A stretch of DNA of 64,000 nucleotides from Owenia fusiformis. Lineage: Eukaryota > Annelida > Polychaeta > Sabellida > Oweniidae. A model generated the notes under the pieces. The model made no database searches. It was not told the origin of the DNA and saw only the letters and a program-made list of their open reading frames with translations. The position numbers and the translations under genes are program-made. Position 1 is the stretch's first letter. Every line of letters begins with the position of its first letter. The stretch covers positions 42,261,394 to 42,325,393 of the forward strand of contig CAIIXF020000005.1 of NCBI GenBank assembly GCA_903813345.2. Reading direction: 5' to 3'. This document shows, in pieces, positions 3,905 through 48,480 of this stretch.

Positions 3905-4050
3905 CGCCTGACGTGAAATCTGGGGACCTGTTATATTTGATCATTGTTCCACTGGGACTTGTACTTCTGACGGTAATTGGATGTCTTGTCCTATTCTGCC
4001 ACCGTAAAAAACAACCTAAAAAAGCTTCTAAAGCGTGGCAAGAAAATATG
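3905..4050 (+). CDS. RTK exon: transmembrane segment
   Basis: Starts inside a codon (phase 1) after the acceptor at 3903-3904 and ends with ATG before the donor GTAGGT at 4051. It encodes a short extracellular stub (APDVKSGD), a helix of about 23 hydrophobic residues ([20 protein letters not shown] onward) and a basic stop-transfer segment ([12 protein letters not shown]). The next 14.5 kb are intron. The phase-0 end matches the next exon exactly. Confidence 0.88.
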
Positions 4051-28000: not shown

Positions 28001-31000
28001 AATAACAATTTACTTCATTTGATCGGTTTTAAGAGGACAATTCATTCTGATACTCTCCCTCATTTAAATGATTACACTCATGAGCTGGTAAAATGGGCTT
28101 TTCTCATTTTAAAGAACTCACACTTCAAACAAAGGTTATAAATTAATAATGTATGTTGTGTTCTCAAAGTTTTTGACTACAAATTAATTTTTGTCATCAA
28201 ACATTTCAGCAAAACCGCTTACCTTTTCAACTTGAAATTTTTACAGATGCAAAAGTAGACTAGTGTCAAGATCTGAGAAGGTTTAGGGCTTGCTGGATAA
28301 ATTTCTCAGTGGTCATTCTGAATTTTTCCAGAAATCTTGTCATAAAGGAAAACCACCTATTCACTTGAAATTTAAAAGATAGAACAGACTATGTGCCAAT
28401 ATCTGATTAGGTTTTGGGAATGCTGACTTGTACTTAGGCACATGGTGGCCATTTTGAATTTTTTGATTAATCGGCCATTTTGAATTTTTCAACCTATTTT
28501 TCAAATTAACATATTTATTTTTATTTGAAAATCATCTTCAAGTTCTCAGGAATTCAAACCTGACCTTTGATTTGATTTCTTGACCTTTGGGTGACCTTTA
28601 GTGACCTTCCAAGTTTGAAAGATTGATTTTTAAAAATGATTTTTTTTATTCAAATTTAGGCAAGTTTAATACAAAAGATCTACTGAAGTCTGAAAAGGTA
28701 AAGTTTTCAAGGTCAAGGTCATCAAACTAGGTCACAAATGCTGATATTTAAGTTTTTCAAAGTTTGAGACTACAATTCCATTCTTGTCATCAAAGTTCCA
28801 GGAAGACCGCTGATCTGTTGAAGGCCCTCAATTTTAAGAAAGGGCCCTTTTGGAAAATGGGCCAAAAGATGATATTTTTTATACATTTCAACAAACAATG
28901 TGTACATATAGTGATTAAAACAACCATTAAAACAATGTTCAAGGTACCTCTTTATTTCCATTAAACAACATATTGTGACCCTTGTGATATACATGTTTAG
29001 AAATATTGAAATGTCACTTCCACTTTAGATGCTGGTTCAAAGCGGCCTGAATCTGGAGCTCTATCTGAAGAGAGTGCTGTGTGTCTTACTGAGGATAAAC
29101 TGGTACCCAGCAAGGAGGACTTTGTTAGTTCAAAACAACTTATATCATACGCCAGACAGATTGCAGTTGGCATGGTAGGTGTTAGTGTACTATATAAATC
29201 CCAGATGAATCTATTAAAATTACGTATTGAACTAAAACTTCTGAAGTGTGGTCTTGTGAAATTCAAATAGACTAATCTAAAAGATCTTTCTGCTCTGAAA
29301 GATTAAGCATATACATGTAGTTATATAGAATAATTTGCAACTGCTCATTTAGCATGACATAGAAATATTCACGTGCAATTACAGGAATATTTATCACAGA
29401 AGAAATTTGTACATCGAGACCTAGCATGTCGTAATGTACTTGTCTTTGATCACAACTTGGTGAAGATATCTGACTTTGGCCTGACTCGGGATATATATGA
29501 GAACAGCCTCTATCTTAAAACCACACCTGGAAAGCTTCCGTTTAAATGGATGGCTATTGAGTCAATATTTGACCAAATTTATACAATTAGAAGTGATGTG
29601 TAAGTATGAAAGGGAGCTCCGACATCCAATCGTTTAGAGGGAGGGGGTTAACCAATAGGCCAAATCTAAGATACTGCGAGCAGCTTAATTGTACATTTGA
29701 TCATTTTGGGAATAATTGTTTTTGAAAATCATACACTTGGTAACAAAGGGGTTCTTTGACACTAATTATCCAAGCGAATAAAGTTCAGTAGGGATATAGT
29801 GAAACCATTCAAGATAACTCAAATACTAATGGACAGATTTTCTTTATATCGGTGAATAGTTGAAATTTTGGTAGTGTATTAACAACATCTATCTATTTTA
29901 TATATATTCAGAATTTTCACCATGATCCCCTGGTGCCATGGTGGGGGGTCCGGAAAATGGGAATTTGCGTTAATTTTGAGATCTTTCTAAGTATAGCCTT
30001 ATTATACTCATATGAAAGGCAATTTAGAGTAGATTGCAAACATTGTATCTGTTTTGCAATTTGGGCCTTGTAAAATTCAAAATGGCCACCTTATGTGAGG
30101 TTTCGCAATAATTTTCTGATCCCTTTAAAGTATGGCTATATTATACTCAAATTGAAGGAATTTTAGGGTAGATCATTACCTTGGTGTTGTCTTTCTGATT
30201 TGTGCTTCAGAAAATTCAAAATGGCTGCCAACAGGAATTTGCATTTATTTTGAGATCTTTCTGAAGTAATACTTTATTATACTCAAATGGAAGGCAATTT
30301 AAAGTGGATTCCAGATATCGTATCTGTGTGTAATTTGTTCACAATAATTTTCTGATCTCTTCAACGTACATGTATGGCTATGTTATTCTCAAACTGTAGG
30401 TAATTTAGTGCAGATAACTGATTTGTGCCTCAGAAAATTCAAATTGTCTTTATTGTTTGTGCCTTTAAGACTCTCAAATGGTCATCCAAATGCTTTTTAA
30501 GAATGGTAGAAATTCTGATATATCTCTAATGTTTCCAAACTTCAGATTTTTTTGTGACAAATAAAGATTCATATGTGTTATAGTGTTTGTTGGGATTTGC
30601 TACTCCATGGAGTTGCCGTTTTCTAGTTCTGAAAATGTGTACATGTATATTGCATTTGTCTTTTTCGGTTCTAATGAATTTCGACATTTCTACTTCTCAA
30701 CTTCAGCTTCAATAACTTCAGTATTAGATATCTCAATTCTATTTCAGTATAAATTGAAAATTAGGATTTAATGGAAACATTAGCATGCCTAGAATATATA
30801 CATGGCTACTGCCATTATGCACCCTACATTCTGTGCTTCCACTTGAAAGGGATATATCATGCTGTCATCTTTTAAGATTTCACTTGGGAAGTCATGTCAT
30901 AGACATGATGATAGACATGATGATAGCCTTATAAAAAGTCAAGGGAAGTGAAGAAAAAATTGAAATAAAAATACCAATCCAGTCCATTTCCAGGTCAAAG

Positions 31001-34000
31001 TCCAGGTCCAAGTCAAGGTCCAGGTCTAAGTCCAGATCAGGTCCCAGTCCAGTCAAAGTCCAGGTTCAGGGCCATGTCCAGTCCGGTTCCAAGGCCAGTC
31101 GAGGTCCAAAGGCAGTCCAGGTCTAAGTCCAGTCCAAGTCCAGCACAGGTTCAATCCAGTCAAGATCCAAGTCCAGTCCAAAGCCAGTCCAATCCAGGTC
31201 CAAGTCCAGGCCAATGTCTAGGTCCAAATCCAGGTCCAAGTCCAGTCCAGGTCTACGTCCAAGTCAAGTCCTGGTCCAAGTCCAGTTCAGGTCCAAGTCA
31301 AGTCTAGTCCAGGCCCAAGTCCAGTTTAGGTCCAAGTTTAGACCAGGCAAGGTCTAAGTCCAAGTCCAGGTCAGAGTCCAGTCAAGGTCCAAGTCCAGTC
31401 CAGTCTGTCCTTCCATCCGTCCATACAGAAGATCTGTCATCTGGAGTCTGAGATTGAACTTGTTCAATTTCCCCAGTCTAGTGATCTTTGATTTAATCCT
31501 TCTAAAAGTTTATTCTTTTATTCTAAGCTGAGAAGCTCTGAGCATAGTTTTGCACAGAAAGTGATGACCACTTGTCTAGAAGGGGATTTGTGCAATTTTC
31601 CTTCTCTGTAATCGACGAGATGAGAGTTGATGACATCACTCTCTTAATGAAATCTTAAAGGCCCACTTTGGGATTTTTTAACATTTTTGGGCAAAATAGA
31701 GACTTACATTTAAATTTCATAGTATGCCCAATGTATTGATAAGGAACTTGTCTTTCATTTGACACCAACAACAACTCGAATGGACCACATCAAAGCTTAC
31801 AATAAATTATCTAAAAATATTTTTGATCTGTCAAGATTTACATATCAAGTTTTTATCATTGAAAGATGGCAAAGTTTTTTTTTTATAGAAGTGTTGCCAT
31901 CTTTTAAACCAATAGTAATTTAAAATATGCACTTTGTTTAACATGTGCATGCATGTCTTATGATTTCAGAAATTCAAATGCTTTTTTCTACGTGAGGTAT
32001 TTTTTTCTTGGTTCAATATTAAAGCAAATCAAACTTTGTGTCATATTTGAGCAAGTGTGTTAGTAAAATGAATCTATGATTATTATTATTTTTTCTTCTT
32101 AATTAAGTATAGTGCAGCTTTTTTAGATGGGGGCTTACTTGAAGTGAGCACATATATTTCTAAATGATCAACATTGACTATATATAGATATAGGATTTTA
32201 TTAGTACTGATGCCCTTTTAGGGCCAAACGTACATCCGATATACAATTTTCAATAACAGTAAATATAGCAATAAAGTAAAGAAAATAGGATTACATTCTT
32301 CAAATGACATATATAAAATGTTACTTTGATATAAGAATCCTGTCTCTACCAATCATTAGATACTTTATCATGTCAGCAGCTTCTTTTAATATGATCCCCT
32401 CACTCGTCAATAGAAAAATTGTCTTTTGGTGATCATTCATGTTTTTAAAATTACTACACAGGTTTTCAAGTTTTTCAATATGGGATTTTCTGATAAACTC
32501 CAATTTTTTACATTTGAATAAAAAGTGTGTTTCATCTTCTATAACCGAGTCCTTACATATTTTACAAAATCGACTATTAAGATCAGTAATTGGTTTTGTA
32601 TATCGGCCTCTCTCTATCTCTAGATTGTGGGCGCTTATACGTAATCTAGTTAAATGTTTAGCGTTTGAAAGTCTCGTTTCTGAAAGGTAGTGTTCAAACC
32701 CAAAGTGCGATTTTAGTTGTTTAAATAATCTAAGTTTCCCCCCATTCCCACTTATCAGATTCTTCCAATATACTTGATATCTCTCTATTAATTTCTTTTT
32801 GACTTTAATAGCAAGCCTATTTGTGCTCTTCTCTATGTTTACCTTATCTTCAAGATTCAATTCATCAGACATTTTTATTTTAATATGGCACAGTATATTT
32901 TTGAGTTGTTTGTGCCATGTAAATGTGTTATTTGTTAAAACAAATGTTTTACTCATAATTAATGAATCGTTTAGTAAACTCCCATTTGCACTCAACTCTA
33001 AATGACCGAGGTATTTGATTTGTCTTTTTATAATATCGACTACCAAAGGTATTCTTCCCAATTCTCCTCTTACTGCCATGTTTGTGGCTTTTCTATGAAC
33101 TCCGAGAACATATTTTTGGAACCGAATATGATTGTTTTCAATTAAAGCACTTTCGTATTTATGTTCAATATCTCTATTAGTTAGGCAGTCACGCTTGGTA
33201 TATATATCAGTACACCATATTTCCGACCCGTATAAAGCAACGGGTTTGATAAGTTGATCATACAATTTCATTTTCAGTGAAGACTTCATCTCTGTGCCGC
33301 TTGTCAATTGATAAACTTTAAACATGGCTTTATTTGCTTTTTCCTTTATGTTTTGCTGGGCCGGTTTAAAAGATCCCGAAGCACTTAAGATAATTCCCAA
33401 ATATGTATACCTTTGAACATTTTGTATAATCTTACCATTTATTTGAAATCGTTCTTGACAAACTTTGCCACATTTCCAGAATTTCATAATTTTTGTTTTG
33501 TCAATGTTAATTTCAAGTTTCCAGTCATCACAGAAGGATTCAAGAGTGTTTAATTTTAGCTGCATTCCTTCTTTACTAGTATCAAATATGACTAAATCGT
33601 CTGCGAATAGCAAACTGCTAACATGTTGAGTTTCAAGGAATGGAGATTTCCCAACATTATCAAACTTTTTTATAATATCATTTATATATATGTTAAATAA
33701 TAATGGACTGAGCGAGTCTCCTTGTTTTACACCCCTAGCACATGAAAACGATTCCGTATAAGTTGAGTGATTAAGTTTTACACACGCCGTGGCATTTTCA
33801 TACATATATATACATTTTCCAGTGTTTTGCTAAATATGGAAAGTATGTATATGATTATCCCACCGAGTGAAGTTCGAGGGGGATATAGGAAAGCTGTTCG
33901 TCTGTTTGTTTGCCAGTCTGGGCAATAATTCAAATACCGTTTTGACTTATGGTTGTAGGACATCTGCTGGAGAAGGAATTTCCAATATGCTCTCATAATT

Positions 34001-37000
34001 CAAAATGGCCACTATTTTTCATAAAAAACATAATCCTAAATAACATAAATACTATTTGACAGCTTTGGTTTAAAATTCATAAGCTGATGCCTAGGGACAA
34101 AAAAGCTTTGCTCAAACAGAGATTTTCAAGATGGCTGCTGAATTCAAAATGGCCTCCATTGTTTGTAAAAGAACATTATCATTGATAACTCAAATACCAT
34201 ATGAGGGATTTTGTCTAAATTTTCTTTGCCTTGAGATACAGGAGCTCTGCTCAAAAAGACATTTATAATATTTGATATCTCCAATATCATTGCTTGAATT
34301 TGCTTCATATAAGCTGATGTCAGAGATCAAAACAGCTAAAATTCAATATTGCTGTCATTCTTCATAAAAACGTTAATCAAGGGAGGAATTTTCAAGATGG
34401 CAGTTAAATATCAAAATGGTCACCTTTTCATTAAAAGAACACAATCTTTGATGAGTCAAATACCAGTGGAGCAATTTTGTTCAAATTTTATATGGTGATA
34501 CCTCTGATGACATTTCACCAATTTAAAGTTAGGAGTTTCAGATTTAAATACAAAAAGAGGAAAATCTTTTAATTTGTCTGAAAAAGAACCTCGATATTTT
34601 ACAAAATGAGCATGCTAAACAATTAACATATATAGAAACTATGAACCATAAAGTTTGAGAGGGTGATTACTTACATGAGGTGAACTACAAGCAATGATAC
34701 TTGGGTTTTGTTCAATCATTTCATTAAAGTGGATATAGTCATTGAAATGTGTTGAACATATTGAAATACACCATATGCTAAATTCAGTCCCTGTTTCTTA
34801 ATAAAAGCATTAAACTAAGAATTAAAAACATTTAATGATAACACTTTTTCAGGTGGTCATTTGGTGTTACATTATGGGAACTGGTAACTTTAGGTGGCTC
34901 CCCCTATCCTGGTGTGTCGGGCAATGAACTTTTCAAATTGCTGAAAGATGGCTATCGTATGGAGAAGCCGGATAACTGTAGTCCTGAAATGTAAGTTAAA
35001 TGAAATGGGCCGATCGGGTGTGGGCAAGACAGATGCCAACACTGAACTGGATATAAGTTATTTATAATCTGACAAAAATTAAGATTTCTTAAAGGCAGAA
35101 TCAGATTTAGCAATTACTTTGGTGCTTCACCTTGACGAAAATTGCTTCAATTTTAGATTATTTTTGGCTCATATCATTCCTTGTGATGTCTATTTTCTAA
35201 AAATTCCTCAAGTATATACTTTATTTGAGGAAAACTAAAGATTTTTAAAATAATGCAATCATTTGTCTATTTTTAGGTCACCACCGGAAAGTGGTGACAT
35301 ACAGGGTGTTCACTAATTAATGACACTAGGTCTCTCGTTTTGTCAAAGGAGGAGGGAAAGTATTGCAACAGACAGTCATATGTTGTTTCAGACAGTCATA
35401 TGTTGGATTGTGGCTATTCTCTGAGGATTTAAACAGGTGCATGTGTTAGAGCAACACATTACCTCCAGGAAAAGCACTCATAAAGATGATAAAATAATTT
35501 CGACTTTGAGACAGGGGAGGTGCAAACAACCCACCCACATGTTTTTTCTGAAATGCTGTTCTGGTTTTTAACCCCTTCCACCCCTGCTTTTTCAATTTTT
35601 GTTGTATCAATATGTTGCGTTTTGACACACAGTTAACCACTTTAAAGGAATAAATAATTCCTTCAGGGGTTTAAAAGATATCCATTATGGCCAAAATCCA
35701 ACATATGACTGTCCAAGATCTGTTGAGAGATTGGGTCAAAATTGTATAAATGGGAGACCTTATTACTTAGTGAACACCCTGTATTGTTATGGTCTCCATT
35801 TTTTGTGACGGCAGTTGGTGATCAGCAGGTGGTGGTTGATGGTTGGCGATCTGCGTCTGTAACAAATTCTTACAACTCCCAATAACTAACAAAAAATACT
35901 GTTAAGACTGACATGAATTTTTCAAAATCATCTAAAAGTTTTCCGAAGTTAAAATCTGATTTTAGATTTCAGATTTGACCTCCTATGACCTTCTTAAGGT
36001 CTTTTTTCAACTTGCTTCAAATTGACCAATTTTTTACAAAATCATCTACAAGTTCTCAAAAGTACAAATCTGACTATAGATTTGAGATTTGACCTTCTAT
36101 GACCTTTTAAAGAAATTCGAGCAATAAAAATAACAAAATGTTACTTCTGTCACAAGATCAAACTACATATTATTTTGAAGAACTTTTCTGAATTTTTAGT
36201 CTTCAAACATGTTGGTGCAGGTGTTTAGCTTTCCAATGGTACCAAGATTAGCCGGTAACCTTTTGGAGGTTTAAACTTCTTTATTTGAAGACTTTATGAG
36301 ATCTGGCTACTCATCTATATTCTTTGACATATTCTTCACCCTACCTACATGCATTTTGTAATTTAACAATCAACACAAGTATACCAAGTTCTCGGAATAT
36401 CAAATCTGACTATAGATTTGACCTTTAATAACCTTCTCAATGTCAAAAAGATTCATAATATTGTGAGCACCTACATCTAGGTTTGTGGCATGTTATAGAA
36501 TGTTGTGCGTGTTTGCCTTCTAAATATTGCAGATCATGTTTATGTGATTAAAATGTTATCCTAAGCTAGCTGTTTCCAATTAATGATAAATGATGATATT
36601 TTTCTACTGTTATTAAATGGATGAGACTTATTTGTTATTTTGATGGTTAAGCCTTGATGTTGTGGTTTCATTTCTTGTTAATAATGTTCAGATGACCTTT
36701 AATGTCAAATGAACCTTATTAACCATATACTTCATGATCATTTTACTCCATCCCAAATGAAAAATGTTTATTCACATTTTGTTTCTTATGTTCAGCTATC
36801 AGATCATGTTAACATGTTGGCATCCTACACCCAATGAAGGACCTTTATTCACATTTTGTTTCCCATCAGATTATGTTAATATGTTGGCACCCTACACCTT
36901 ATGAAAGATCTACATTCACATTTTGTTTCCCATTTTCAGCTATCAGATTATCTTAACATTTTGGCACCCACACCTTATGAAAGATTTACATTCACATTTT

Positions 37001-39146
37001 GTCAACCCATTTTCAGCTGTCAGATTATGTTAACATGTTGGCACCTAACACCTTATGAAAGATCTACATTCACATTTTGTTTCCCATTTTCATCTATCTG
37101 ATTATGTTAACATGTTGGCACCCCATACCTTATGAAAGATCTACATTCACATTTTGTTTCCCATTTTCAGCTATCAGATTATCTTAACATTTTGGCACCC
37201 ACACCTTATGAGAGATTTTCATTCACATTTTGTTTCCCATTTTCAGCTATCAGATTATGTTAACATGTTGGCATCTAACACCTTATGAAATATCTACATT
37301 CACATTTTTTTCCCATTTTCAGCTATCTGATTATGTTAACATGTTGGCACCCCACACCTTATGAAAGACATATATTCACATTTTGTTTCCCATTTTCAGC
37401 AACAGATTATGTTAACATGTTGGCACCCCACACTTTATGAAAGACATGTATTCACATTTTGTTTCCCATTTTCAGCTATCTGATTATGTTAACATGTTGG
37501 CACCCCACACCTTATGAAAGACATATATTCACATTTTGTTTCCCATTTTCAGCTATCTGATTATGTTAACATGTTGGCACCCAACACCTTATGAAAGACC
37601 TTCATTCATATTTTGTTTCCCATTTTCAGCTATTAGATCATGTTAACATGTTGGCACCTTACACAGTATGAAAGATCTACATTCACATTTTGTTTCCCAT
37701 TTTCAGCTATCAGATTATGTTAACATGTTGGTACCCCACACCTTATGAAAGACATATATCCACATTTTGTTTCCCATTTTCAGCTATCTGATTATGTTTA
37801 CATGTTGGCACCTTACACCTTACACTGTATGAAAGATCTACATTCACATTTTGTTTCCCATTTTCAGCTATCAGATTATGTTAACATGTTGGCACCCCAC
37901 ACCTTATGAAAGACATGTATTCACATTTTGTTTCCCATTTTCAGCTATCAGATTATGTTAACATGTTGGCACCCCACACCTTATGAAAGATCTACATTCA
38001 CATTTTGTTTCCCATTTTCAGCTATCAGATTATGTTAACATGTTGGCACCCCAAACCTTATGAAAGACATGTATTCACATTTTGTTTCCCATTTTCAGCT
38101 ATCAGATTATGTTAACATGTTGGCACCCCACACCTTATGAAAGACCTACATTTACATTGTTGCGGAATAAACTAGAAAGAATTTTAGAAGAATCAACTCC
38201 CTACATTGACCTGAATATGAAAGGGAATAAGGACTACTACATTCAACAGGACAGTGTTTCAGGGTGAGCTTATTAATCAAATTTGAAAAAGGGATATTAA
38301 GTCTAACTTATATTACAATGCATTGTATTTTTATGTTTTAGTGCATCATAGTCACTTATATGTCATTGCAACATGTTAGATTCAAATATCAACGTACCCA
38401 ATGACAAAATGTAATCAAAATGTGAAAATGCCATGTTATGCCACAAACCTGTAGAAACTCCAACGCATGGTTACACAGTGTTGTGCATATATTTAAAATC
38501 ATTAGAAAGTGAAACAATTTGAAATGAAAACAAATTATGTTGTAAGAGTGAAGTAAGTTTCAATCCTAAATATTTTTGTATAATTTGAATAGAATTTATT
38601 ATTTATTTAAATGATTTCTAAAATAGTTCCAGTGAAATTCGTGCTTTCTGTGGTGGCATTTCTGCAAAGGAAAATGATTCTGGTGAGATGAGATGTAAAC
38701 CCAGGGAATCACAAGTTGAAGTACATACCTTACCTCAACCCACATATTACCGGTATGGTTCAAACCAACATGCTATGAAAAATTCAACCAAAAAAGAAAT
38801 AACATTTGATGGACATTATGTAGCATGTGGGAGTAAGGTTGATACCAAGAAGCCTCTAGACCGTATAGATGATAATTTATTACAGTGCACTGAAGTATTT
38901 CATCAACCAGCCTCACCCCCCACATATAGTGATTACTCTCAAAGTGCTACAAGTGCAACTCCATTGATTCACCAATCAAATGAAAATATGGATTTGAACA
39001 AGGGCGGCAAAAATCCTGGCATTGTTTACTGTTTAGATGTATATAGGAAAGGCAAGAAAGGTTACGAAGTTAGTACAGGTGATTTATCATATGAAAGTGC
39101 AAAGTCAAATAATGGGACAACCACTGATCATTTATCAGAAGAGTAA
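3905..39146 (+). CDS. Receptor tyrosine kinase gene, 3' part, nine exons
   Basis: Membrane receptor that would phosphorylate tyrosines on itself and on partners after ligand binding. The join 3905-4050, 18530-18734, 22734-22918, 23352-23502, 29029-29174, 29385-29599, 34853-34990, 38099-38263, 38627-39146 keeps frame throughout (622 codons plus stop), and every intron is GT-AG. Order: transmembrane helix, acidic juxtamembrane stretch, glycine loop GQGAFGKV, lysine in VAVK, kinase insert of about 80 residues, [47 protein letters not shown], and a tail of about 200 residues rich in tyrosine. The activation loop and GGSPYPGV resemble the FGFR/VEGFR/RET group and invertebrate Cad96Ca-like receptors. 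Orthology cannot be settled without the extracellular part, which is not in the window. All catalytic residues are present, so the enzyme should be active. Confidence 0.93.
4051..4559. other. Intron sequence between TM exon and LINE
   Basis: No exon recognised. It may include the 5' untranslated part of the LINE that follows; the 5' edge of that element could not be placed. A C10 tract lies at about 4565-4574, just before the LINE reading frame. Confidence 0.4.
4624..8083 (+). CDS. LINE polyprotein: 2A-like, PHD finger, endonuclease, reverse transcriptase (one frameshift)
   Basis: Replication protein of the LINE: it nicks target DNA and copies the element RNA in place. The first part (4624-5865 frame) has a hydrophobic N-terminus, the 2A-like GDISTNPGP (residues about 103-111), a Cys-rich PHD-like finger (CTVC, CDMC, HRKC, CNKC) and endonuclease motifs [38 protein letters not shown] and TIDLIFAD. 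The second part (5843-8083 frame) starts at the endonuclease motif GITDHY and carries the reverse transcriptase: [51 protein letters not shown] and the catalytic YADDT. The two parts are +1 to each other, joined at a G run at 5830-5843. Apart from that the frame is open over about 1,150 codons, so the copy is young. The start at 4624 is the first ATG of the open frame. Confidence 0.9.
4918..4956 (+). other. 2A-like ribosome-skipping motif in the LINE
   Basis: Codons 4930-4956 read GDISTNPGP after the leucine-rich stretch LLTLLIS. Canonical 2A peptides follow D-[VI]-E-x-N-P-G-P and make ribosomes skip the bond between the last G (4951-4953) and P (4954-4956). Such motifs are known near the N-terminus of non-LTR retrotransposons of marine invertebrates. 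Here the usual E is S, so activity is uncertain. Skipping would free about 110 N-terminal residues from the finger/endonuclease/RT part. Confidence 0.7.
5830..5843 (+). other. G14 run at the LINE frameshift
   Basis: Fourteen consecutive G separate the two parts of the LINE reading frame. Loss of one G, or gain of two, would restore a single frame. This is either an inactivating slippage mutation or a homopolymer sequencing error; the sequence alone cannot tell. Confidence 0.85.
8361..8735. other. Unassigned spacer between two LINEs
   Basis: A short open frame at 8427-8672 has no recognisable family. No repeat boundary was seen. It is probably intron sequence or remains of an older insertion. 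Confidence 0.4.
10111..11346 (-). CDS. Mariner transposase, two exons (intron 10480-10650)
   Basis: Cut-and-paste transposase that binds the inverted ends and moves the element into TA sites. Exon 1 is 11346-10651 (232 codons, starts MAPSQSK), exon 2 is 10479-10111 (122 codons plus stop), about 354 residues in total, the normal mariner size. The N-terminal half has paired helix-turn-helix regions ([20 protein letters not shown], then [20 protein letters not shown]) and [14 protein letters not shown], typical of mariner. Catalytic acids: SDES in exon 1, [10 protein letters not shown] and [13 protein letters not shown] in exon 2, with 34 residues between the second and third D. No stops interrupt either exon. 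Confidence 0.93.
10480..10650 (-). other. Spliceosomal intron inside the mariner transposase
   Basis: On the minus strand exon 1 ends AAAG and the intron begins GTAAGATATC (10650 downward) and ends TTTGTTTTTCAG (to 10480). Both neighbouring codons are complete (phase 0), and splicing joins YIAK to VLKRDLQRS, restoring the mariner alignment up to FILHWDNAP. Without splicing, the extra 171 bases carry in-frame stop codons. Confidence 0.85.
11470..11483. promoter_or_regulatory. X-box-like palindrome in the mariner 5' region
   Basis: GTTACCATGGCAAC fits the RFX factor consensus (GTNRCC, 2-base spacer, RGYAAC). It lies about 125 bp upstream of the transposase start. Function is only inferred from the match. 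Confidence 0.35.
12614..12640 (-). other. Degenerate 2A-like motif in the LINE relic
   Basis: The minus strand encodes [14 protein letters not shown]. Canonical 2A ends in NPGP; here the first P of that tetrapeptide has become A through one base change (GCT for CCT), which is expected to abolish skipping. It shows that the relic's ancestor also carried an N-terminal 2A-like sequence. Confidence 0.65.
12681..13741. other. Intron sequence, nothing recognised
   Basis: No exon, RNA gene or clear repeat was seen. Two short open frames (13216-13455 and 13714-13899, minus) have no family resemblance; the second overlaps family A repeat sequence. Confidence 0.5.
13742..13892 (+). repeat. Hairpin-headed repeat family A, fragment
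   Basis: Contains the GGTTGGCG/GGTGGCGGTTGGCGTCTG stretch and CTTCCAATAACT ... TTTAGACTGACTTCA, which also occur in the family A copies at 35275-36475 and 40548-41027. The head is missing, and the copy is cut off exactly where a family B element starts. Confidence 0.75.
13893..14487 (+). repeat. Hairpin-headed repeat family B, full copy
   Basis: Starts with the hairpin GGCTCACACAGTGAGCC, followed by a GTCCGT/GTCTGT tract (about 13920-13990), a body with repeated GATAGGATTCC-type lines, and an end CACCATGTGAGCCCAGTACC that repeats the head arm in inverted form. A second copy is at 47731-48474. Confidence 0.82.
14488..15104. other. Intron sequence, nothing recognised
   Basis: AT-rich, without an exon or repeat boundary that I can support. 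Confidence 0.5.
15974..16505 (+). repeat. Hairpin-headed repeat family E
   Basis: Starts with CGTACCTAAAAAGGTAGG, a hairpin, then CTGTTGTCTGCTTGGCGGATGG and a body with the line GGCCATCTTG repeated four or more times. A tail GAGGTACAATATTGTT at about 16496 repeats the head arm in inverted form. It has the same plan as families A-D, with a weaker microsatellite. Confidence 0.6.
16600..16910. repeat. Cluster of GAATATGCCATATTC-type palindromes
   Basis: The motif GGCATATTC and its complement GAATATGCC occur about ten times in alternating orientation, with several perfect or near-perfect palindromes (for example GGAATATGCCATATTC near 16830). The cluster can fold into multiple stems. No open frame of interest. 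Confidence 0.75.
16985..17360. repeat. Dispersed repeat family H, short copy
   Basis: Collinear with 180-500 of this window: GCCTCAAAAGC, GATTCTGACACTAC, AGCCGAGAATATGCTAATAG, CTTGCCGTCAGAGG, ACTTTTGAGAT and AATAGGTCAAAA appear in the same order with substitutions. Confidence 0.75.
17440..17740. repeat. Two-copy local tandem duplication
   Basis: Segments near 17463-17560 and 17630-17735 share TTCTCC(T/C)AGT, ATTTAAAAATAAGTGAA and GCCTACCCCTA. Diverged tandem duplication of about 170 bp, no coding content. Confidence 0.6.
18530..18734 (+). CDS. RTK exon: juxtamembrane and kinase N-lobe start
   Basis: Begins in phase 0 after TGTTTTAG and ends with one base of a codon before GTACAC at 18735. 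Encodes [13 protein letters not shown], then [20 protein letters not shown] (glycine loop starting at codon 18632) and VAVKMLK, whose invariant ATP-binding lysine is codon 18722-18724. The spacing from glycine loop to lysine includes a longer beta2-beta3 stretch with [12 protein letters not shown], as in FGFR and RET relatives. Confidence 0.93.
18920..20498. mobile_element. DNA transposon remnant with 25-bp inverted ends
   Basis: The left end GTGTTATAGCATGACCGTTACGAC (about 18920-18944) matches the reverse complement of the right end (20474-20496) with one change. The interior has only short frames (such as 19666-19848, minus, of unknown identity) and a nested repeat at 19275-19650. The start of the ends resembles hAT style, but no target duplication was established. 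Confidence 0.65.
19275..19650. repeat. Dispersed repeat family G
   Basis: Starts AAAGAGGCAATAAGGACTGT and ends near GCACTATTTGTAGCACCTTTAAG, so that its ends are weakly inverted. Related pieces are at 23545-23800 (AAAGCGGCAACAAGGTCTGT, AAAAGGAGTCCCA) and 26885-26945 (AAAGGTGCAATAATTAGTGC, CCTTATTGCCCCTTT). Confidence 0.6.
20630..20826. repeat. Palindromic fold-back repeat, family F variant
   Basis: Inverted arms carry TTATTTCATGCTTGATTTTCAATATGAATTTTATTCCACG on one side and its complement on the other (20625-20663 and 20773-20815), around a core that repeats GGTCAATATCATATT and CTCGCTACGCTCG. Related copies are at 41290-41440 and 54928-55131. Confidence 0.72.
20830..21012. repeat. 18-bp A-rich minisatellite
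   Basis: Units close to GAAGATTTTTGAAAAAAT repeat about ten times with drift. The minus-strand frame rich in HFFKN is a by-product of a unit length divisible by three. Confidence 0.85.
21013..22039. other. Intron sequence, nothing recognised
   Basis: AT-rich. No exon or bounded repeat could be supported. Confidence 0.5.
22040..22500 (+). repeat. 92-bp tandem repeat, about five copies
   Basis: The segment GGGCTGTATGTGTTTTTC recurs with its G at 22159, 22251, 22343 and 22435, a strict 92-bp step, with a diverged first copy near 22063. Each unit has a run of T and C followed by ATACATTGCAG, which looks like a 3' splice site. The array ends about 230 bp before kinase exon 22734. A decayed piece (GCAGCAACAGGCTTCTACT) is at about 22635. 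Confidence 0.9.
22734..22918 (+). CDS. RTK exon: alpha-C helix and hinge
   Basis: Starts with two bases that complete an aspartate codon and ends with AAG before GTAAAA at 22919. Encodes [20 protein letters not shown] (alpha-C; the E of RSEIKLM should pair with the VAVK lysine), LGRHKNIV, then the hinge [18 protein letters not shown]. The line [12 protein letters not shown] is typical for FGFR/VEGFR/RET kinases. Confidence 0.93.
23352..23502 (+). CDS. RTK exon: kinase insert, first half
   Basis: Follows TTCTATTCTAG, starts in phase 0 ([20 protein letters not shown]) and ends with one base before GTTAGC. Serine-rich ([16 protein letters not shown]), with tyrosines in KVYSFYQ that could be docking sites. 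It is less conserved than the neighbouring exons, as kinase inserts usually are. The call rests on splice sites and matching phases on both sides. Confidence 0.85.
23545..23800. repeat. Family G repeat fragment
   Basis: Collinear with 19275-19500: AAAGCGGCAACAAGGTCTGT, GAGCCATCAGG, TATTCCTATTTT, TTCTATAAAAGGAGTCCCA. Confidence 0.6.
23801..24620. other. Intron sequence, nothing recognised
   Basis: No exon or bounded repeat seen. A short minus-strand frame near 24483-24704 overlaps the TCCG tract of the next repeat. Confidence 0.5.
24621..25780 (+). repeat. Hairpin-headed repeat family D, copy with doubled tail
   Basis: Head ATCCCATCGAACGAAGTTC with inverted arm, TCCGTCCGTCC tract at about 24661-24692, CAATAACTCAAATACC, then several lines with AAAATGGCCGCCATTTT. 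The tail GTTCGATGGGATTCGCTACG occurs twice, at about 25252 and 25707, each followed by the same sequence through AAATATCTGAGAAAGAT. The inverted relation of head ATCCCATCGAAC and tail GTTCGATGGGAT is exact. Confidence 0.85.
25781..26968. other. Intron sequence with a family G end
   Basis: Mostly unassigned. 26885-26945 matches the ends of family G (AAAGGTGCAATAATTAGTGC and CCTTATTGCCCCTTT). Confidence 0.5.
26969..27793. mobile_element. MITE with ends of about 190 bp
   Basis: Left end GGGTGTCCCAAAAAATGAGACAC (from about 26973) and right end (to about 27787; reverse complement GGATGTCCCAAAAAGAGACAC) are inverted copies. Homology continues through AAATTCAAAATG... on the left and its counterpart near 27635 on the right. 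It is mariner-like in style. No transposase frame inside. Confidence 0.72.
27794..29028. other. Intron sequence with family C-like lines
   Basis: 28230-28870 has lines such as AAAACCGCTTACC, AAGATCTGAGAAGGTTTAGG, GGCCATTTTGAATTTTT and GACCTTTGGGTGACCTTTAG, like the bodies of hairpin-headed repeats, but no head or tail was found. The rest is unassigned. Confidence 0.5.
29029..29174 (+). CDS. RTK exon: kinase insert end and alpha-E
   Basis: Follows CCACTTTAG and starts with two bases that complete an aspartate codon; it ends with ATG before GTAGGT. Encodes the rest of the insert ([20 protein letters not shown]), then [20 protein letters not shown], the alpha-E helix that leads into EYLSQKK of the next exon. 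The last 18 residues fit RTK alpha-E well. Confidence 0.92.
29385..29599 (+). CDS. RTK exon: catalytic and activation loops
   Basis: Starts in phase 0 after AATTACAG and ends with two bases of a valine codon before GTAAGT at 29600. Contains the catalytic loop HRDLACRN (catalytic D codon 29418-29420; most receptors have HRDLAARN), the metal-binding DFG (D codon 29472-29474) and the activation loop [20 protein letters not shown] with two separated tyrosines instead of the YY pair of FGFRs, as in RET (DVYEEDSYVK). It ends in [17 protein letters not shown]. Confidence 0.96.
29767..30632 (+). repeat. Hairpin-headed repeat family D, decayed copy
   Basis: Head TATCCAAGCGAATAAAGTTC with GGGATATAG, no TCCG tract left, body lines CAAAATGGCCACC and AAAATTCAAAATGGCTGCC, tail GTTGGGATTTGCTACTCC at about 30590 and CCGTTTTCTAG. 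The body matches the copy starting at 63301 (for example TTTGGTAGT, CAACATCTATCTATT, TATATATTCAG). Confidence 0.75.
30633..30968. other. Intron sequence, left flank of a tandem repeat
   Basis: No exon. The last 50 bases (TATAAAAAGTCAAGGGAAGTG and on) match the left flank of the pyrimidine repeat at 813. Confidence 0.55.
30969..31425. repeat. CCAGGTCCAAGT-type tandem repeat
   Basis: Degenerate 6/12-bp units of CCAGTC, CCAGGT and CCAAGT over about 455 bp. The open frame at 31074-31307 (rich in S, P and Q) is a by-product. The array sits exactly between flanks that elsewhere surround a different tandem repeat (813-1005). Confidence 0.9.
31426..32179. other. Right flank of the tandem repeat, then unassigned
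   Basis: 31440-31500 (CTGGAGTCTGAGATTGAAC, TTGTTCAATTTCCCC) matches 1068-1130. The rest to 32179 has no recognised feature. Confidence 0.5.
32180..33835 (-). mobile_element. 5'-truncated non-LTR retrotransposon
   Basis: Minus strand. The copy begins at about 33835, just upstream of reverse transcriptase motif B, and ends near 32180 after a short 3' untranslated part with AATAAAATCC. The frame is open to its stop, which suggests recent insertion. The upstream edge coincides with the start region of a family D repeat (33855). 5' truncation is usual for LINE copies. Confidence 0.8.
32321..33805 (-). CDS. Reverse transcriptase C-terminal part (truncated LINE ORF)
   Basis: About 494 residues. 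Motif B is present ([19 protein letters not shown]), then the catalytic FADDLVIF, the thumb/primer-grip line [12 protein letters not shown] and [12 protein letters not shown], a long connector, and a Cys-His end [20 protein letters not shown]. Motif A and the endonuclease are absent, so the protein cannot work. The style differs clearly from the CR1/L2 copy at 4624 and is closer to RTE/I-like groups, but I cannot place it firmly. It was inserted antisense to the kinase gene. Confidence 0.85.
   Translation of the reverse strand: MYENATACVKLNHSTYTESFSCARGVKQGDSLSPLLFNIYINDIIKKFDNVGKSPFLETQHVSSLLFADDLVIFDTSKEGMQLKLNTLESFCDDWKLEINIDKTKIMKFWKCGKVCQERFQINGKIIQNVQRYTYLGIILSASGSFKPAQQNIKEKANKAMFKVYQLTSGTEMKSSLKMKLYDQLIKPVALYGSEIWCTDIYTKRDCLTNRDIEHKYESALIENNHIRFQKYVLGVHRKATNMAVRGELGRIPLVVDIIKRQIKYLGHLELSANGSLLNDSLIMSKTFVLTNNTFTWHKQLKNILCHIKIKMSDELNLEDKVNIEKSTNRLAIKVKKKLIERYQVYWKNLISGNGGKLRLFKQLKSHFGFEHYLSETRLSNAKHLTRLRISAHNLEIERGRYTKPITDLNSRFCKICKDSVIEDETHFLFKCKKLEFIRKSHIEKLENLCSNFKNMNDHQKTIFLLTSEGIILKEAADMIKYLMIGRDRILISK
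33855..34560 (+). repeat. Hairpin-headed repeat family D, copy without TCCG tract
   Basis: Head TATCCCACCGAGTGAAGTTC with GAGGGGGATATAGG, then GTCTGTTTGTTTGCCAGTC in place of TCCG units, CAATAATTCAAATACC, and body lines TTCAAGATGGC and TCAAAATGGCC. The tail was not identified; the end is approximate. Confidence 0.7.
34561..34852. other. Intron sequence before exon 34853
   Basis: Unassigned. It ends with the strong acceptor ACACTTTTTCAG. Confidence 0.5.
34853..34990 (+). CDS. RTK exon: alpha-F to alpha-G
   Basis: Starts with one base that completes valine (GT|G) and ends with AT before GTAAGT at 34991. Encodes [20 protein letters not shown], then [20 protein letters not shown] and NCSPE. It is close to RET and FGFR at the same position ([16 protein letters not shown]). 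Confidence 0.96.
34991..35274. other. Intron sequence after exon 34990
   Basis: No feature recognised. Confidence 0.5.
35275..36475 (+). repeat. Hairpin-headed repeat family A, interrupted copy
   Basis: Head GGTCACCACCGGAAAGTGGTGAC, then (after a nested MITE) TTGTTATGGTCTCC, GGTTGATGGTTGGCGATCTG, and lines GATTTGACCT...ATGACCTT. The end near ATATTGTGAGCACC corresponds to ATATTGTGCGCAAC at 40997; the final inverted GGTGGTGAC is not clear here. Confidence 0.75.
35300..35783. mobile_element. 480-bp MITE nested in family A
   Basis: Inverted ends CAGGGTGTTCACTAA at 35302 and TTAGTGAACACCCTG ending 35781, flanked by TA on both sides. A second inverted pair (AGACAGTCATATGTTGGAT at about 35392 and its complement at about 35697) lies inside. 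Removal gives GACATATTGTTATGG, which equals the uninterrupted family A copy at 40566 (GACATATTGTTATTG). This confirms the insertion and the TA duplication. No transposase. Confidence 0.88.
36476..36764. other. Intron sequence before the 77-bp array
   Basis: No feature recognised. Confidence 0.5.
36765..38098 (+). repeat. 77-bp minisatellite made of an exon start plus its splice acceptor
   Basis: About 18 tandem copies. The three last units start at 37945, 38022 and 38099, a strict 77-bp step; earlier ones vary (75-78 bp, one truncated near 36855). Each unit has the last 17 bases of the intron (TTGTTTCCCATTTTCAG) and the first 60 bases of kinase exon 38099 (CTATCAGATTATGTTAACAT and on). The final unit is the real exon: it alone keeps AGACCTACATTTACATTG and continues into TTGCGGAATAAACTA. 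Most other copies have AGATCT or AGACAT at the RP codons. Nearly every copy keeps a good polypyrimidine tract and AG. Confidence 0.95.
38099..38263 (+). CDS. RTK exon: alpha-H, alpha-I, end of kinase domain
   Basis: One base completes isoleucine, then [20 protein letters not shown] and [11 protein letters not shown], the usual end of an RTK kinase domain (CW and RPTF). It continues with [20 protein letters not shown] and ends with two bases of a glycine codon before GTGAGC at 38264. The first 60 bases plus the acceptor are copied in the upstream array. Choice of this acceptor: all upstream ones lead to a stop in the next unit. Confidence 0.95.
38264..38626. other. Last intron of the kinase gene
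   Basis: 363 bp, GTGAGC to TTTCTAAAATAG. No other feature. Confidence 0.85.
38627..39146 (+). CDS. RTK last exon: tyrosine-rich C-terminal tail
   Basis: One base completes glycine. 172 codons and a stop (TAA 39144-39146). No known domain. Tyrosines occur in [39 protein letters not shown] and LSYESA, which may be SH2 or PTB docking sites after activation. SPPTYSDY contains PPTY (codons 38916-38927), the PPxY form bound by WW domains. The tail is low in hydrophobic residues and likely disordered. Confidence 0.92.
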
Positions 39147-42385: not shown

Positions 42386-43012
42386 CATAGGTCTGTGTAC
42401 ATTATATGTGGAACTGAATGTTCATAGGTGTACATTATATGTGAAACTAAATGTTCATAGGTGTACATTATATGTGGAACTGAATGTTCATAGGTGAACA
42501 TTATATGTGGAACTGAATGTTCATAGGTGTACTTTATATGTGGAACTGAATATTCATAGATGTACATTATATGTGGAACTGAATGTTCATAGGTGTACAT
42601 TATATGTGAAACTGAATGTTCATAGGTGTACATTATATGTGGAACTGAATATTCATGGATGTACATTATATGTGGAACTGAATGTTCATAGGACGGTGTA
42701 CATTATATGTGAAACTGAATGTTCATAGGTGTACATGATATGTGAAACTAAATGTTCATAGGTGTACATTATATGTGGAACTGAATGTTCATAGGTGTAC
42801 ATTATATGTGAAACTAAATGTTCATAGGTGTACATTATATGTGGAACTGAATGTTCATAGGTGTACATTATATGTGGAACTGAATGTTCATAGGTGTACA
42901 TTATATGTGGAACTGAATGTTCATAGGTGTACATTATATGTGGAACTGAATGTTCATAGGTGTACATTATATGTGAAACTAAATGTTCATAGGTGTACAT
43001 TATATGTGGAAC
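42386..43012. repeat. 33-bp minisatellite, about 19 copies
   Basis: Unit close to GGTGTACATTATATGTGG / AACTGAATGTTCATA. One unit has a short insertion (ACG at about 42693). Because 33 is divisible by three, both strands show long frames (HRCTLYVELNV on +, MYTYEHSVPHI on -); these are not genes. Confidence 0.95.
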
Positions 43013-43277
43013 TGGATGATGAAATCTTAGCTTCCTATACAGCTACTGTAGTTATTAAAATATTTTACACAATAAGACATAGCAACCTAAATCAGGGTTC
43101 TATCTGTCAATAGAAATATCACAAGATTACTCCCAAAATTGCTTAAATTGCACTGGCTCATCCAGGATGGGGGTGGGGGGTCTAAAATTTGAGCAAATTT
43201 GAGCAAAAGGACCTTGAGTTGTTTGTAGAATGAATTGGTTGAGTTTTTTCATGCATTTTGCTTGTGTTTTTCTCTAA

Positions 43278-43603
43278 AAAGCATCAATACACTTTAAAAC
43301 ATATTATTGAGTATAAGATTGCACCATATAATCCAAAAAGATATTTCTAATTTTCAAGGATTATCTATGGATTTACACCCAGGCATTTTTATTTTTCAAA
43401 ATTGTTTTGTTTATGTAAAACAGCATTTATATTATTCAAAAATGTTTGTAATAATCATTCGCCATCCTTCTGAAGTTTGAAAAATAAAAATACCTGGGTG
43501 TTAATCCATAGATAATCCTTTAAAATGAGAAATATTTTTGGGGATTATATGGTGCAATCTTATGGTCAATAAAATGTTCTAAAGTGTATTGATGTTTTTT
43601 AAA
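43278..43603. repeat. Fold-back element with arms of about 120 bp
   Basis: The left arm (43280-43400: CATCAATACACTTTAAAACA, AAGATTGCACCATATAATCC, GGATTATCTATGGAT) and the reverse complement of 43478-43600 match at most positions. About 75 bp of AT-rich loop. No coding content. Confidence 0.85.
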
Positions 43604-43950
43604 AATATTAAAAAATTATTGGAACCACCTCCTATCAAATCCGATGCACTGTATACATACAACCATGCAGGCTGCATTCAACAATCAATGTGGTTTATAC
43701 ACTTATAGTCTTTATACATTGTTATACTAAATTATGAGATTTGGTGAGATTTTAAAAGTAGCAGTTTTTGACTCATCATGAAATTGTCAACTTATCTGTC
43801 TGTACTTCCTTCTATCTGTCTACTGTGTGAACTAAGTCTCATTTTTATTTCATGTCCTATTTTTGCATTTTTTGAGAAATCAGCTTTTGGTCATCAAATA
43901 CATGTATTACATCTATATTAATTTCCAATCATATAATAATGTAACTTCAA
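43604..43950. other. Unassigned spacer before the 45-bp array
   Basis: No feature recognised. Confidence 0.5.
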
Positions 43951-46900
43951 CACATAGTCAGAAGTACATGTATCCCTGTCAGTTGCTATACTTGAAACAT
44001 ATGGTCAGAAGTACATGTAACCCTGTCAGTTGCAAATTGCAATATATAGTCAGAAGTACATGTATCCCTGTCAGTTGCAACTTGCAACATATAGTCAGAA
44101 GTACATGTCACTCTGTCAGTTACAACTTACATTATATGATCAGAAGTACATGTCAACCTGTCAGTTGCAACTTGCAATATATGATCAGAAGTACATGTAA
44201 CCTTGTCAGTTACAAATTGCAACATATAGTCAGAAGTTCATATTACCCTGTCAGTTGAACATACATGTTCTTGCATATTATAATTATGTACTCTCCAATA
44301 TATTATGGAGGCAATAAAGATACATAAACATAAACTTGCAATTCATAGTCAGAAGAACATGTAACCCTGTCAGTTGCAAATTGTAATATATAGTCAGAAG
44401 TACATGTAACCCTGTCAGTTGCAACTTGCAATATATGATCAGAAGTACATGTAACCCTGTCAGTTAAAACTTACATTATATAGTCAGAAGTACATGTAAC
44501 CTTGTCAGTTGCAACTTGCAATATATGATCAGAAGTACATGTAACCCTGTCAGTTGCAACTTACATTATATAGTCAGAAGTACATGTAACTCTGTCAGTT
44601 ACAACTTACATTATATGATCAGAAGTACATGTTACCCTGTCAGTTGCAACTTGCAATATATGATCAGAAGTACATGTAACCCTGTCAGTTGCAACTTACA
44701 TTATATAGTCAGAAGTACATGTAACTCTGTCAGTTACAACTTACATTATATGATCAGAAGTACATGTTACCCTGTCAGTTGCAACTTGCAATATATAGTC
44801 AGAAGTACATGTTACCCTGTCAGTTGCAACTTGCAATATATGATCAGAAGTACACGTAACCTTGTCAGTTGCAACTTGCAATATATGATCAGAAGTACAT
44901 GTAACCTTGTCAGTTGCAACTTGCAATATATGATCAGAAGTACATGTAACCTTGTCAGTTACAAATTGCAACATGTAGTCAGAAGTACATGTAACTCTGT
45001 CAGTTGCAACTTGCAATATATGATCAGAAGTACATGTAACCTTGTCAGTTACAAATTGCAACATGTAGTCAGAAGTACATGTAACCCTGTCAGTTGCAAA
45101 TTGCAATATATAGTCAGAAGTACATGTAACCCTGTCAGTTGCAACTTACATTATATAGTCTGAAGTACATGTAACCTTGTCAGTTACAAATTGCAACATG
45201 TAGTCTGAAGTACATGTAACCTTGTCAGTTACAAATTGCAACATGTAGTCTGAAGTACATGTAACCTTGTCAGTTACAAATTGCAACATATAGTCAGAAG
45301 TACATGTCACTCTGTCAGTTCTAACTTGCAATAATATATGATCAGAAGTACATGTAACTCTGTCAGTTGCAACTTGCAATATATAGTCAGAAGTACATGT
45401 CACCCTGCCAGTTGCTACTTGCAACATATATTAAGAAGTACATGTAACCCTGTCAGTTGCAACTCGCAACATATATTCAGAAGTACATGTAACCCTGTCA
45501 GTTGCAACTTGCAATATATAGTCAGAAGTACATGTAACCCTGTCAGTTGCAACTTGCAATTTATAGTCAGAAGTACATGTAACCTTGTCAGTTACAAATT
45601 GCAACATATAGTCAGAAGTACATGTAACCCTGTCAGTTGCAGCTTGCAATATATATTCAGAAGTACATGTAACCCTGTCAGTTGCAAGTTGCAATATATA
45701 GTCAGAAGTACATGTAACCCTGTCAGTTGCAACTTGCAATATATGATCAGAAGTACATGTAACCCTGTCAGTTGCAACTTGCAATATATGATCAGAAGTA
45801 CATGTAACCCTGTCAGTTGCAACTTGCAATATATGATCAGAAGTACATGTAACCCTGTCAGTAGCAAGTTGCAACATATGATCAGAAGTACATGTAACTC
45901 TGTCAGTTACAACTTACATTATATGATCAGAAGTACATGTTACCCTGTCAGTTGCAACTTGCAATATATGATCAGAAGTACATGTTACCCTGTCAGTTGC
46001 AACTTGCAATTCATAGTCAAAAGTACATGTAACCCTGTCAGTTGCAACTTACATTATATAGTCTGAAGTACATGTAACCTTGTCAGTTACAAATTGCAAC
46101 ATGTAGTCTGAAGTACATGTAACCTTGTCAGTTGCAACTTGCAATATATGATCAGAAGTACATGTTACCCTGTCAGTTGCAAGTTGCAATATATAGTCAG
46201 AAGTACATGTAACCCTGTCAGTTGCAAGTTGCAATATATAGTCAGAAGTACATGTCACCCTGCCAGTTGCTACTTGCAATATATGATCAGAAGTACATGT
46301 AACCCTGTCAGTTGCAAGTTGCAACATATGATCAGAAGTACATGTAACTCTGTCAGTTACAACTTACATTATATGATCAGAAGTACATGTTACCCTGTCA
46401 GTTGCAACTTGCAATATATGATCAGAAGTACATGTTACCCTGTCAGTTGCAACTTGCAATTCATAGTCAAAAGTACATGTAACCCTGTCAGTTGCAACTT
46501 ACATTATATAGTCTGAAGTACATGTAACCTTGTCAGTTGCAATTTGCAACATATGATCAGAAGTACATGTAACCCTGTCAGTTGCAACTTGCAATATATG
46601 ATCAGAAGTACATGTTACCCTGTCAGTTGCAACTTGCAATATATGATCAGAAGTACATGTTACCCTGTCAGTTGCAACTTGCAATATATGATCAGAAGTA
46701 CATGTTACCCTGTCAGTTGCAACTTGCAATATATGATCAGAAGTACATGTTACCCTGTCAGTTGCAACTTACATTATATGATCAGAAGTACATGTAACCT
46801 TGTCAGTTGCAACTTGCAATATATGATCAGAAGTACATGTTACCCTGTCAGTTGCAACTTGCAATATATGATCAGAAGTACATGTTACCCTGTCAGTTGC

Positions 46901-47068
46901 AACTTGCAATATATGATCAGAAGTGCATGTAACCCTGTCAGTTGCAACTTGCAATATATAGTCAGAAGTACATGTAACCCTGTCAGTTGCAAGTTGCAAC
47001 ATATGATCAGAAGTACATGTCACTCTGTCAGTTACAACTTACATTATATAGTCAGAAGTACTTGTCAC
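43951..47068. repeat. 45-bp satellite-like array, about 67 copies
   Basis: Unit: AGAAGTACATGTAACCCTGT / CAGTTGCAACTTGCAATATA / TAGTC. There is one break at about 44255-44336 with unrelated sequence. Higher-order structure is visible: a three-unit block (135 bp) repeats at 44521-44790, and a ten-unit block (450 bp) repeats, 45895-46080 being the same as 46345-46530. Units contain the palindrome ACATGT and TTGCAACTTGCAA. Both strands are open in long frames because 45 is divisible by three; no gene is proposed. Confidence 0.96.
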
Positions 47069-47730
47069 ATGTGGTGACATGTCATGGTGTGTTAATATAT
47101 TGGTGTTATTGATTCTTCAAATTCAAATGATATAATATCCAAACTTTGTCTCACTAAGATCCTATATTAGATTATATATTACCTAACATTTGCTCATCTT
47201 CTTTCAAAATTTTTACCATCCAAAACTTGTGTTCTTTGTTTGGTTACATATTATTTTTGTGGTCTAAGTGTTTTCAATCAATTTGCTGTAACATATAGCT
47301 CATTATCCTATGCCAAGTAGAGTTTTAGGGAGATTGTAAGTCGGTAATATATGTCCCTTATCCTAACTTTGAGGTTTCCACATCTAGAACCTCCATATCT
47401 TCCACCAAATTGAAAAAAAAATTTAGAAAAATTTGAAAGAACTACTGGGTATAGGATAAATCAGTTATGTAGGGTCGGTTTGGATATGGGGTTTATCCCT
47501 CCTGAGATATACACATCTATTTTTGGTCCCTACAGTCCCTCAGGTAGATATGCATATTTATCTTATACTTAGTAGTGTTATAGGTAGATAATTTGTGGGA
47601 ATATGATTGTTATCTGAGGTGAACGGGAGATATATCACCCGCTCATCAACAATTCCCGGGGATTTCGTACGGTACTTTTTTCGTTCACCAGTACAGTACG
47701 TGTGTTACCGTGGCCCTATTGAATTGATAT
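47069..47730. other. Unassigned intergenic sequence
   Basis: No gene or bounded repeat recognised. Confidence 0.5.
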
Positions 47731-48474
47731 TTAGCTCACATGGTGAGCTTTTGCAATCACTCTCTTGTCCGTCAATCTGTCCGTGCGTGCGTACGTCCGT
47801 CTGTCCGTCAACAATAGTGGCACGTTTTAAAACCTCTGTCGATAGGATTCCTGTTTTAAGTTATTTCTGTTCAACATCAATACAGAAAACTCCCCTATGC
47901 ATTTTCAAAATGGACGCCATTTCACGAAATTCTCGCGAAATTCATTTTGACCCATTTCCTAGTTTTACAAATAATTTCAGGTCCTACATTGAAAAAATCC
48001 ATGTCGATGTAAAGAGTAGATATATGAAATAATTTTGTTACAAAAAATCAGCAAAAAATTATATCTATTTTTTATTTTCAGCCATTTTAGTTAACATTGA
48101 TTTGTCCATCTGACTCGCGAAATCCACTTTTCAATCAACAACAGTGGCACGTTTTAAAAGGTCTGTCGATAGGATTCCTGTTTTCGCGAAATTCACTTTC
48201 GACCCATTTCCTAGTTTTACAAATTATTCCAGGTGTCCTGCATATTGCAAATACATGTCACTGTAAAGAGTAGTTGTATGAAATAATTTTTTAAGCCATT
48301 TTACTTAACATCGATTTGTCCATCTGTCTCTCAGTCAGTCCAAAATATTGTCAAGTGGCTTTTAAATTGTTACAAAAAATCAGCAGAAAAATATATCCTT
48401 TTTTTATTTTCTGTCATTTTAGCCATCATTCACTTTTGAGCAACACCATGCGAGCCCAGTACCCACGGTACTAT
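47731..48474 (+). repeat. Hairpin-headed repeat family B, second copy
   Basis: Head TTAGCTCACATGGTGAGCTT, GTCCGT tract (about 47766-47810), body AAAACCTCTGTCGATAGGAT, partly duplicated inside (about 48110-48240), tail CACCATGCGAGCCCAGTACC. The long frame at 47607-48032 crosses it and is not a gene. Confidence 0.82.
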
Positions 48475-48480
48475 TTTATT

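Follow-up and report, generated by a model that had tools for sequence, protein, structure and literature searches.

The window, the whole 64,000-nucleotide stretch of Owenia fusiformis DNA that was analysed, lies 131-195 kb from the end of contig C5 and contains an otherwise intact receptor-type tyrosine kinase gene, one exon of which begins within a long minisatellite (Table 1). A profile search gave PF07714 matches in the exons near 22739, 29385 and 34854, and alignment to an intronless paralogue adds the kinase exons from 18551-18733 to 38099-38263 listed in Table 1; the same alignment places a membrane span near 3919, by a weak match only (E 0.008). The catalytic motifs of the gene are intact. 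The exon ending at 34990 splits a codon (AT/C) and, when it is joined to 38099, the frame stays open until the stop codon at 39144-39146. The closest paralogue (C9:20349210-20349506, L001/L006), which is intronless and has an uninterrupted frame of 1153 residues, reads EIYQVM straight across this junction.

Table 1. Exons of the kinase gene and parts of its array (positions in the window), followed by the exon-boundary arrays found elsewhere in the genome
Feature	Position	Strand	Basis
Exon with glycine loop and VAVK lysine	18551-18733	+	alignment to intronless paralogue
Kinase exon containing LRRLREK	22733-22918	+	PF07714 match, paralogue alignment
Kinase exon	23352-23444		alignment to intronless paralogue
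Kinase exon	29118-29174		alignment to intronless paralogue
Kinase exon with HRDLACRN and DFG motifs	29385-29600	+	PF07714 match, paralogue alignment
Kinase exon 5' of the array; ends SPE, codon split after AT; donor GT at 34991	34853-34990	+	
Exon-boundary minisatellite, 18 tandem units of ~77 bp, the last being the real intron/exon junction	36770-38149	+	TRF, cyclic alignment
First (leftmost) unit; AG intact; exon part from 36796	36770-36846	+	unit alignment
Unit 2; homologous acceptor removed by deletion	36847-36913	+	unit alignment
Unit 5; acceptor AG changed to AT	37068-37144	+	unit alignment
Last three upstream units; exon parts from 37868, 37945 and 38022	37842-38072	+	unit alignment
Intron part of terminal unit; branch-like TTCAC, pyrimidine tract, CAG; acceptor presumed used	38073-38098	+	
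Real exon, 165 nt; donor GT at 38264; homologous to paralogues L001-L005	38099-38263	+	
Last coding exon; start 38627 or 38633; stop codon 39144-39146	38627-39146	+	
L025/L137, acceptor array before kinase exon, units 101-103 bp	C6 ~40509640-40511554	minus	
L097, kinase exon, acceptor array 86 bp x 3.8 and donor duplication 71 bp x 2.0	C5:68974-70242		
L136, ABC-transporter exon, 21-bp acceptor array, 3 copies	C12		
L143, kinase, donor array, 54-bp units, 3.9 copies	C10:27469518-27470615	minus	
L148, 51-bp acceptor array, 4.8 copies	C2		

TRF reports the array at 36770-38158 with a period of 77, 18.1 copies, 87% matches and a score of 2062, far above chance. Each unit joins 26 nt of intron end (ATTCACATTTTGTTTCCCATTTTCAG) to 51 nt of exon start, and 18 units are resolved when the array is aligned cyclically to its consensus. 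The original prediction, which had 18 units precede the exon, was right in the number of units and off by one in their placement, since the terminal unit is the true start of exon 38099-38263 and the extra copies upstream are 17; as it had also proposed, only the last unit runs on into the full exon. The splice signals are widely but not uniformly kept. The homologous AG is intact in 15 of the 17 upstream units, the 26-nt intron part is the same as that of the terminal unit in 10, and the stretch from -20 to +8 is the same as the real splice site in 7, among them each of the last three; YERPTF is coded by the terminal unit only, so the claim that every unit repeats the same intron end and coding start does not hold. 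The branch-point consensus is yUnAy, and a branch-like YTNAY motif is present 16-45 nt from the acceptor position in all 18 units; TTCAC or TTCAT opens the intron part in 17 of the 18 and is gone from the unit at 37758-37841. Of the upstream units, the leftmost resembles the terminal one least (85.7% identity). A tandem unit that straddles an intron-exon boundary, copies that bear splice signals and a last unit that continues into the exon are the features of the arrays called mirages in amphioxus (PMC3087553).

Minisatellites (period at least 10, at least 3 copies) cover 13.5% of the window; in ten 8-kb samples of the interior the figure is 7.5%, contributed almost entirely by three of them, and with such coverage chance arrays at exon edges are to be expected. 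One intron of this kinase gene holds a 92-bp tandem array (22062-22497, 98% matches) with a CAG in every unit; on reading, its units are unlike the next exon at 22733, and it was taken as an intronic minisatellite rather than a second mirage. Further minisatellites of the window lie at 42395-50109 and 60093-61302 (33 bp x 19, 45 bp x 61, 162 bp x 6 and 145 bp x 8).

Upstream acceptors and variation among the units

Of the 18 junctions, the terminal one alone keeps the frame open as far as the end of the gene. When the frame is joined at any of the 17 upstream positions, a stop is reached after 2-39 residues, as the predicted truncation implied; in particular, from the acceptors that precede 37868, 37945 and 38022 the stop comes 31 residues later, in agreement with the frame shift foreseen for the last regular units. 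The premature stop thus precedes a later junction for 17 of 17 positions, as at a poison splice site, and its distance to the end of that exon is 148-1384 nt, or 148-1359 nt for the 15 units that keep the AG. A stop located more than 50-55 nt upstream of a junction generally leads to decay of the transcript, and by this rule the transcripts from these 15 units are expected to be decay targets. To act as tandem cassette exons the units would each need a donor of their own. On the usual nine-position donor consensus the best of the 55 GTs within 36770-38098 matches 6 positions and the others at most 5, as compared with 8 of 9 for the real donor at 34991 and 7 of 9 for that at 38264. No good donor being found among them, the units are better described as alternative acceptors than as cassette exons.

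The exon part of the upstream units differs from that of the terminal one. The terminal exon and all five paralogues compared (L001-L005) have the proline of the RPTF/RPSF motif, whereas its codon CCT is kept in only 2 of the 17 upstream units, the others having TCT (7), CAT (6) or TTT (2); YERPSF is found in one upstream unit, and YERSTF, YERHVF or YERHIF is read in 10. In the first 46 exonic nucleotides of the upstream units, the distinct changes number 4, 11 and 10 at codon positions 1, 2 and 3, respectively, and this lack of an excess at position 3 gives no sign of protein-level constraint on the upstream copies. From these sequence comparisons, only the terminal copy looks protein-constrained, and the upstream copies are taken as unconstrained. 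A constraint on the upstream splice signals was also considered, since changes are rarer in the intron part (8 of 432 cells, 1.9%) than in the exon part (39 of 778, 5.0%), and was rejected because this raw gap is not significant when distinct changes are counted (8 versus 25, p = 0.20).

Pairwise identity between the units ranges from 79 to 100% (mean 91%, gaps left out) and is independent of their separation (Spearman -0.05), so that a simple history of local expansion is not visible; identity to the terminal unit climbs weakly toward that unit (rho 0.49, p 0.048). The left end of the array (ATTCACATTTTG) resembles the exon sequence just past the last unit (ATTTACATTGTTG). The homology of the array ends (ATTCACATT-TTG / ATTTACATTGTTG) was equalled or beaten by 5.1% of the 2371 position pairs 77 bp apart that served as control (window 20001-36600), and homology of this length may plausibly have seeded a tandem duplication.

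Paralogues and further exon-boundary arrays

A protein search of the whole genome (498,259,871 bases in 525 contigs, of which C1 to C12 measure 31.9-62.2 Mb) listed 62 matches, including the two query exons and several array units. Three matches above the cut-off to PF16915, the erythrocruorin linker, a family of annelids, are also present in this genome and spoke against an amphioxus host; a search for COX1, intended to reveal the mitochondrial code, gave no match. No array was present at the same-place intron in the four multi-exon paralogues fetched whole (L002-L005), and no TRF array was found between both flanking exons in ten further kinase regions. Several receptor-kinase-like matches, including C9:20348400-20352400 (L006), lie in uninterrupted frames of 511 to 1153 residues; such long frames suggest repeated retrocopying.

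To learn whether arrays of this kind are rare, 143 regions around exon matches were surveyed in the same genome, the array of the window being kept outside the count. They comprise 44 kinase regions (L002-L005 and L007-L046), 40 cytochrome P450 and 20 kinase regions (L057-L116), 20 kinase and ABC-transporter regions (L117-L136) and 19 kinase regions (L138-L156). An array was counted when TRF gave a period of at least 15 and an overlap with the family match; reading was confined to arrays at or near the match, and a short array at an exon edge that the match does not reach may be missed by this rule, L149 possibly being one. Six regions passed and on reading five of them hold exon-boundary arrays, that is 3.5% (95% interval 1.1-8.0%), a rate per region and not per gene, since certain regions fall in one and the same gene and a number of the matches are in intronless genes. 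None was found among the 40 P450 regions, versus 5 in the 103 others (p = 0.32).

The array before the kinase exon on C6 (L025/L137) is longer than that of the window and has 19 intact acceptors, the real one included; 3 of its 19 units have a variant with an in-frame TGA. The exon of L097 belongs to a kinase that we take to be PAK-like. In the donor array of L143 the units continue in frame, with another unit cluster beyond an unrelated insert, and since 54 bp is a multiple of three and the frame is open through several units, splicing from downstream donors would add 18-residue repeats to the kinase. The idea that unit lengths are never multiples of three, suggested by 77, 101, 86 and 71, is broken by 54 and 51. 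The first two further arrays found lie ~329 kb (C6) and 69 kb (C5) from contig ends. A subtelomeric bias was not established by the count of all regions (2 of 13 less than 500 kb from a chromosome end versus 3 of 130 others, Fisher p = 0.065), for which extra exons had been sampled near ends and in the interior and the regions L018 and L030, which lie on 25-kb contigs, put with the others.

Several candidates were set aside. The array of L105, flagged by TRF, is intronic on reading. In L068, L091, L022, L109 and L123 the array is near a splice site and does not include the exon; those of L068 and L091 are intronic minisatellites that start or end within ~12 bases of the site. L026, L124, L146 and L147 do not hold boundary arrays on reading. 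L149 (C1:49727296-49728345, 403-480) is borderline and possibly a small mirage: it has a faint 21-bp repeat upstream, of which a third and diverged copy forms the acceptor junction of the exon. As TRF stops before the exon, it was left uncounted.

Known arrays of the same kind

The statement that no array of this type had been described is contradicted by at least two known systems. In amphioxus, the mirages are minisatellite-like tandem duplications over intron-exon boundaries of globin and Adh3 genes, and RT-PCR suggests that splicing is undisturbed; one array has 6 units in one haplotype and 3 in another, and such arrays have been proposed as seeds of new introns (PMC3087553). The amphioxus mirages and the 77-bp array have in common the boundary-straddling units, the splice signals in many copies and the authentic section beside the copies; in amphioxus, too, either side of an exon can be affected (the acceptor side in BflGb6, the 3' boundary of exon 2 in BflGb9). 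They differ in scale and in the data at hand: the units are of 150-160 bp (6 or 3) in BflGb6 and of 10-72 bp in Adh3 (PMC3087553), as compared with 17 extra copies of 77 bp here, and the cephalochordate arrays come with RT-PCR and allele data whereas the annelid array is known from DNA sequence.

In the human CBS gene, the polymorphism c.844_845ins68 duplicates a 68-bp portion of the intron 7/exon 8 junction and creates two competing sites, of which the distal one is strongly favoured (PMC2630376). This account terms the site a 'donor', and the title of a 2002 paper that it cites speaks of 3' splice site selection. That duplication is a single extra copy whereas the kinase array has 17. A 31-bp VNTR of the same gene, c.1444_1467+7(16_21), is length-polymorphic with 16-21 units which its name puts across an exon end (PMC2630376), and it differs from the kinase array by its donor side and its unit length. 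Internal tandem repeats at human exon-intron boundaries, described from segmental duplications, can change splicing or make novel introns (PMC2812944); they concern recent paralogues and average ~4 units of ~30 bp, versus 18 units of 77 bp here. Among the papers listed by searches of the open-access literature, no annelid exon-boundary minisatellite was recognised. The kind is thus already known from amphioxus and human CBS, and what is new is the annelid example and a survey with several like cases; the kinase array is notable for its copy number, for its host phylum and for how many similar arrays the same genome holds.

Origin of the array and choice of the acceptor

Taken together, the anatomy of the array, the full kinase frame obtained from the last site only and the loss of the proline codon in 15 of the 17 upstream units make it probable that the array is an exon-boundary minisatellite of the mirage kind, tolerated because the last acceptor wins, with perhaps some unproductive leakage. 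A 77-bp stretch made of the intron end and the first 51 exonic nucleotides would have been duplicated in tandem, and then multiplied by the ordinary turnover of minisatellites, by slippage or unequal exchange. The leftmost copy would retain the left context of the intron and the rightmost the remainder of the exon, so that use of the 3'-most acceptor would leave the gene intact. This acceptor would define a short exon of 165 nt, instead of at least 242 nt, beside the real donor, and exon definition should favour it; we infer that splicing uses it. The 17 upstream copies would then be intronic, non-coding and free to drift neutrally.

The explanations diverge on whether the upstream acceptors are silent. 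If each of them captured a small share of splicing without any regulation, more copies would mean less productive mRNA, and length alleles would tune the dose of the receptor. The intact AGs, the seven units with the real site from -20 to +8 and the decay expected by the 50-55 nt rule for all 15 AG-keeping units are in agreement with such a copy-number-dependent leak, which is a live alternative to a neutral mirage, if a rather unlikely one. The difference of 6 versus 3 units between two amphioxus haplotypes (PMC3087553) also favours it. Against it, the amphioxus RT-PCR and the CBS duplication point to regular or strongly distal splicing. The original prediction had left the choice between a neutral expansion and a tunable off-switch for the receptor. 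Our data favour the former, in view of the lack of protein-level constraint upstream, the two lost AGs and the similar arrays at other exon edges, and the latter finds no support here. A factor that moved the acceptor choice upstream would shut the receptor down or yield a truncated kinase, and the geometry would suit it, as the product of the three nearest acceptors would end ~12 residues past YER.TF in the kinase C-lobe and that of some others earlier. Such a regulated switch is nevertheless very improbable with no sign of constraint on the array, the absence of the array from the four multi-exon paralogues and the like arrays at unrelated exons.

That the array, seen in one assembly, could be an artefact or inflated in copy number can hardly be expected, as the units carry individual variants and the array measures 1.4 kb. 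The published assembly of this species (505.8 Mb, 12 chromosome-scale scaffolds), if it is the same, was built from PacBio reads with an N50 of 25.75-30.75 kb (PMC9977687).

If the rate of 5 in 143 regions held genome-wide, well over a thousand exons would be concerned. It is a decidedly doubtful extension of our results that exon-boundary minisatellites are genome-wide here and that many of them, acceptor or donor arrays, act as copy-number rheostats; if this were true, a length-dependent share of transcripts would be bled into unproductive or extended forms, giving heritable variation of dose as well as a source from which new introns and exons could form. Otherwise ordinary genes whose arrays offer up to 19 acceptors amount to natural experiments in how the spliceosome chooses when the local sequence is of little help. 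If mirages are as frequent as this small survey suggests, splice-site choice would be testable on many loci of one sequenced animal, and the idea set out in PMC3087553 that arrays seed new introns could be tested on many loci at once.
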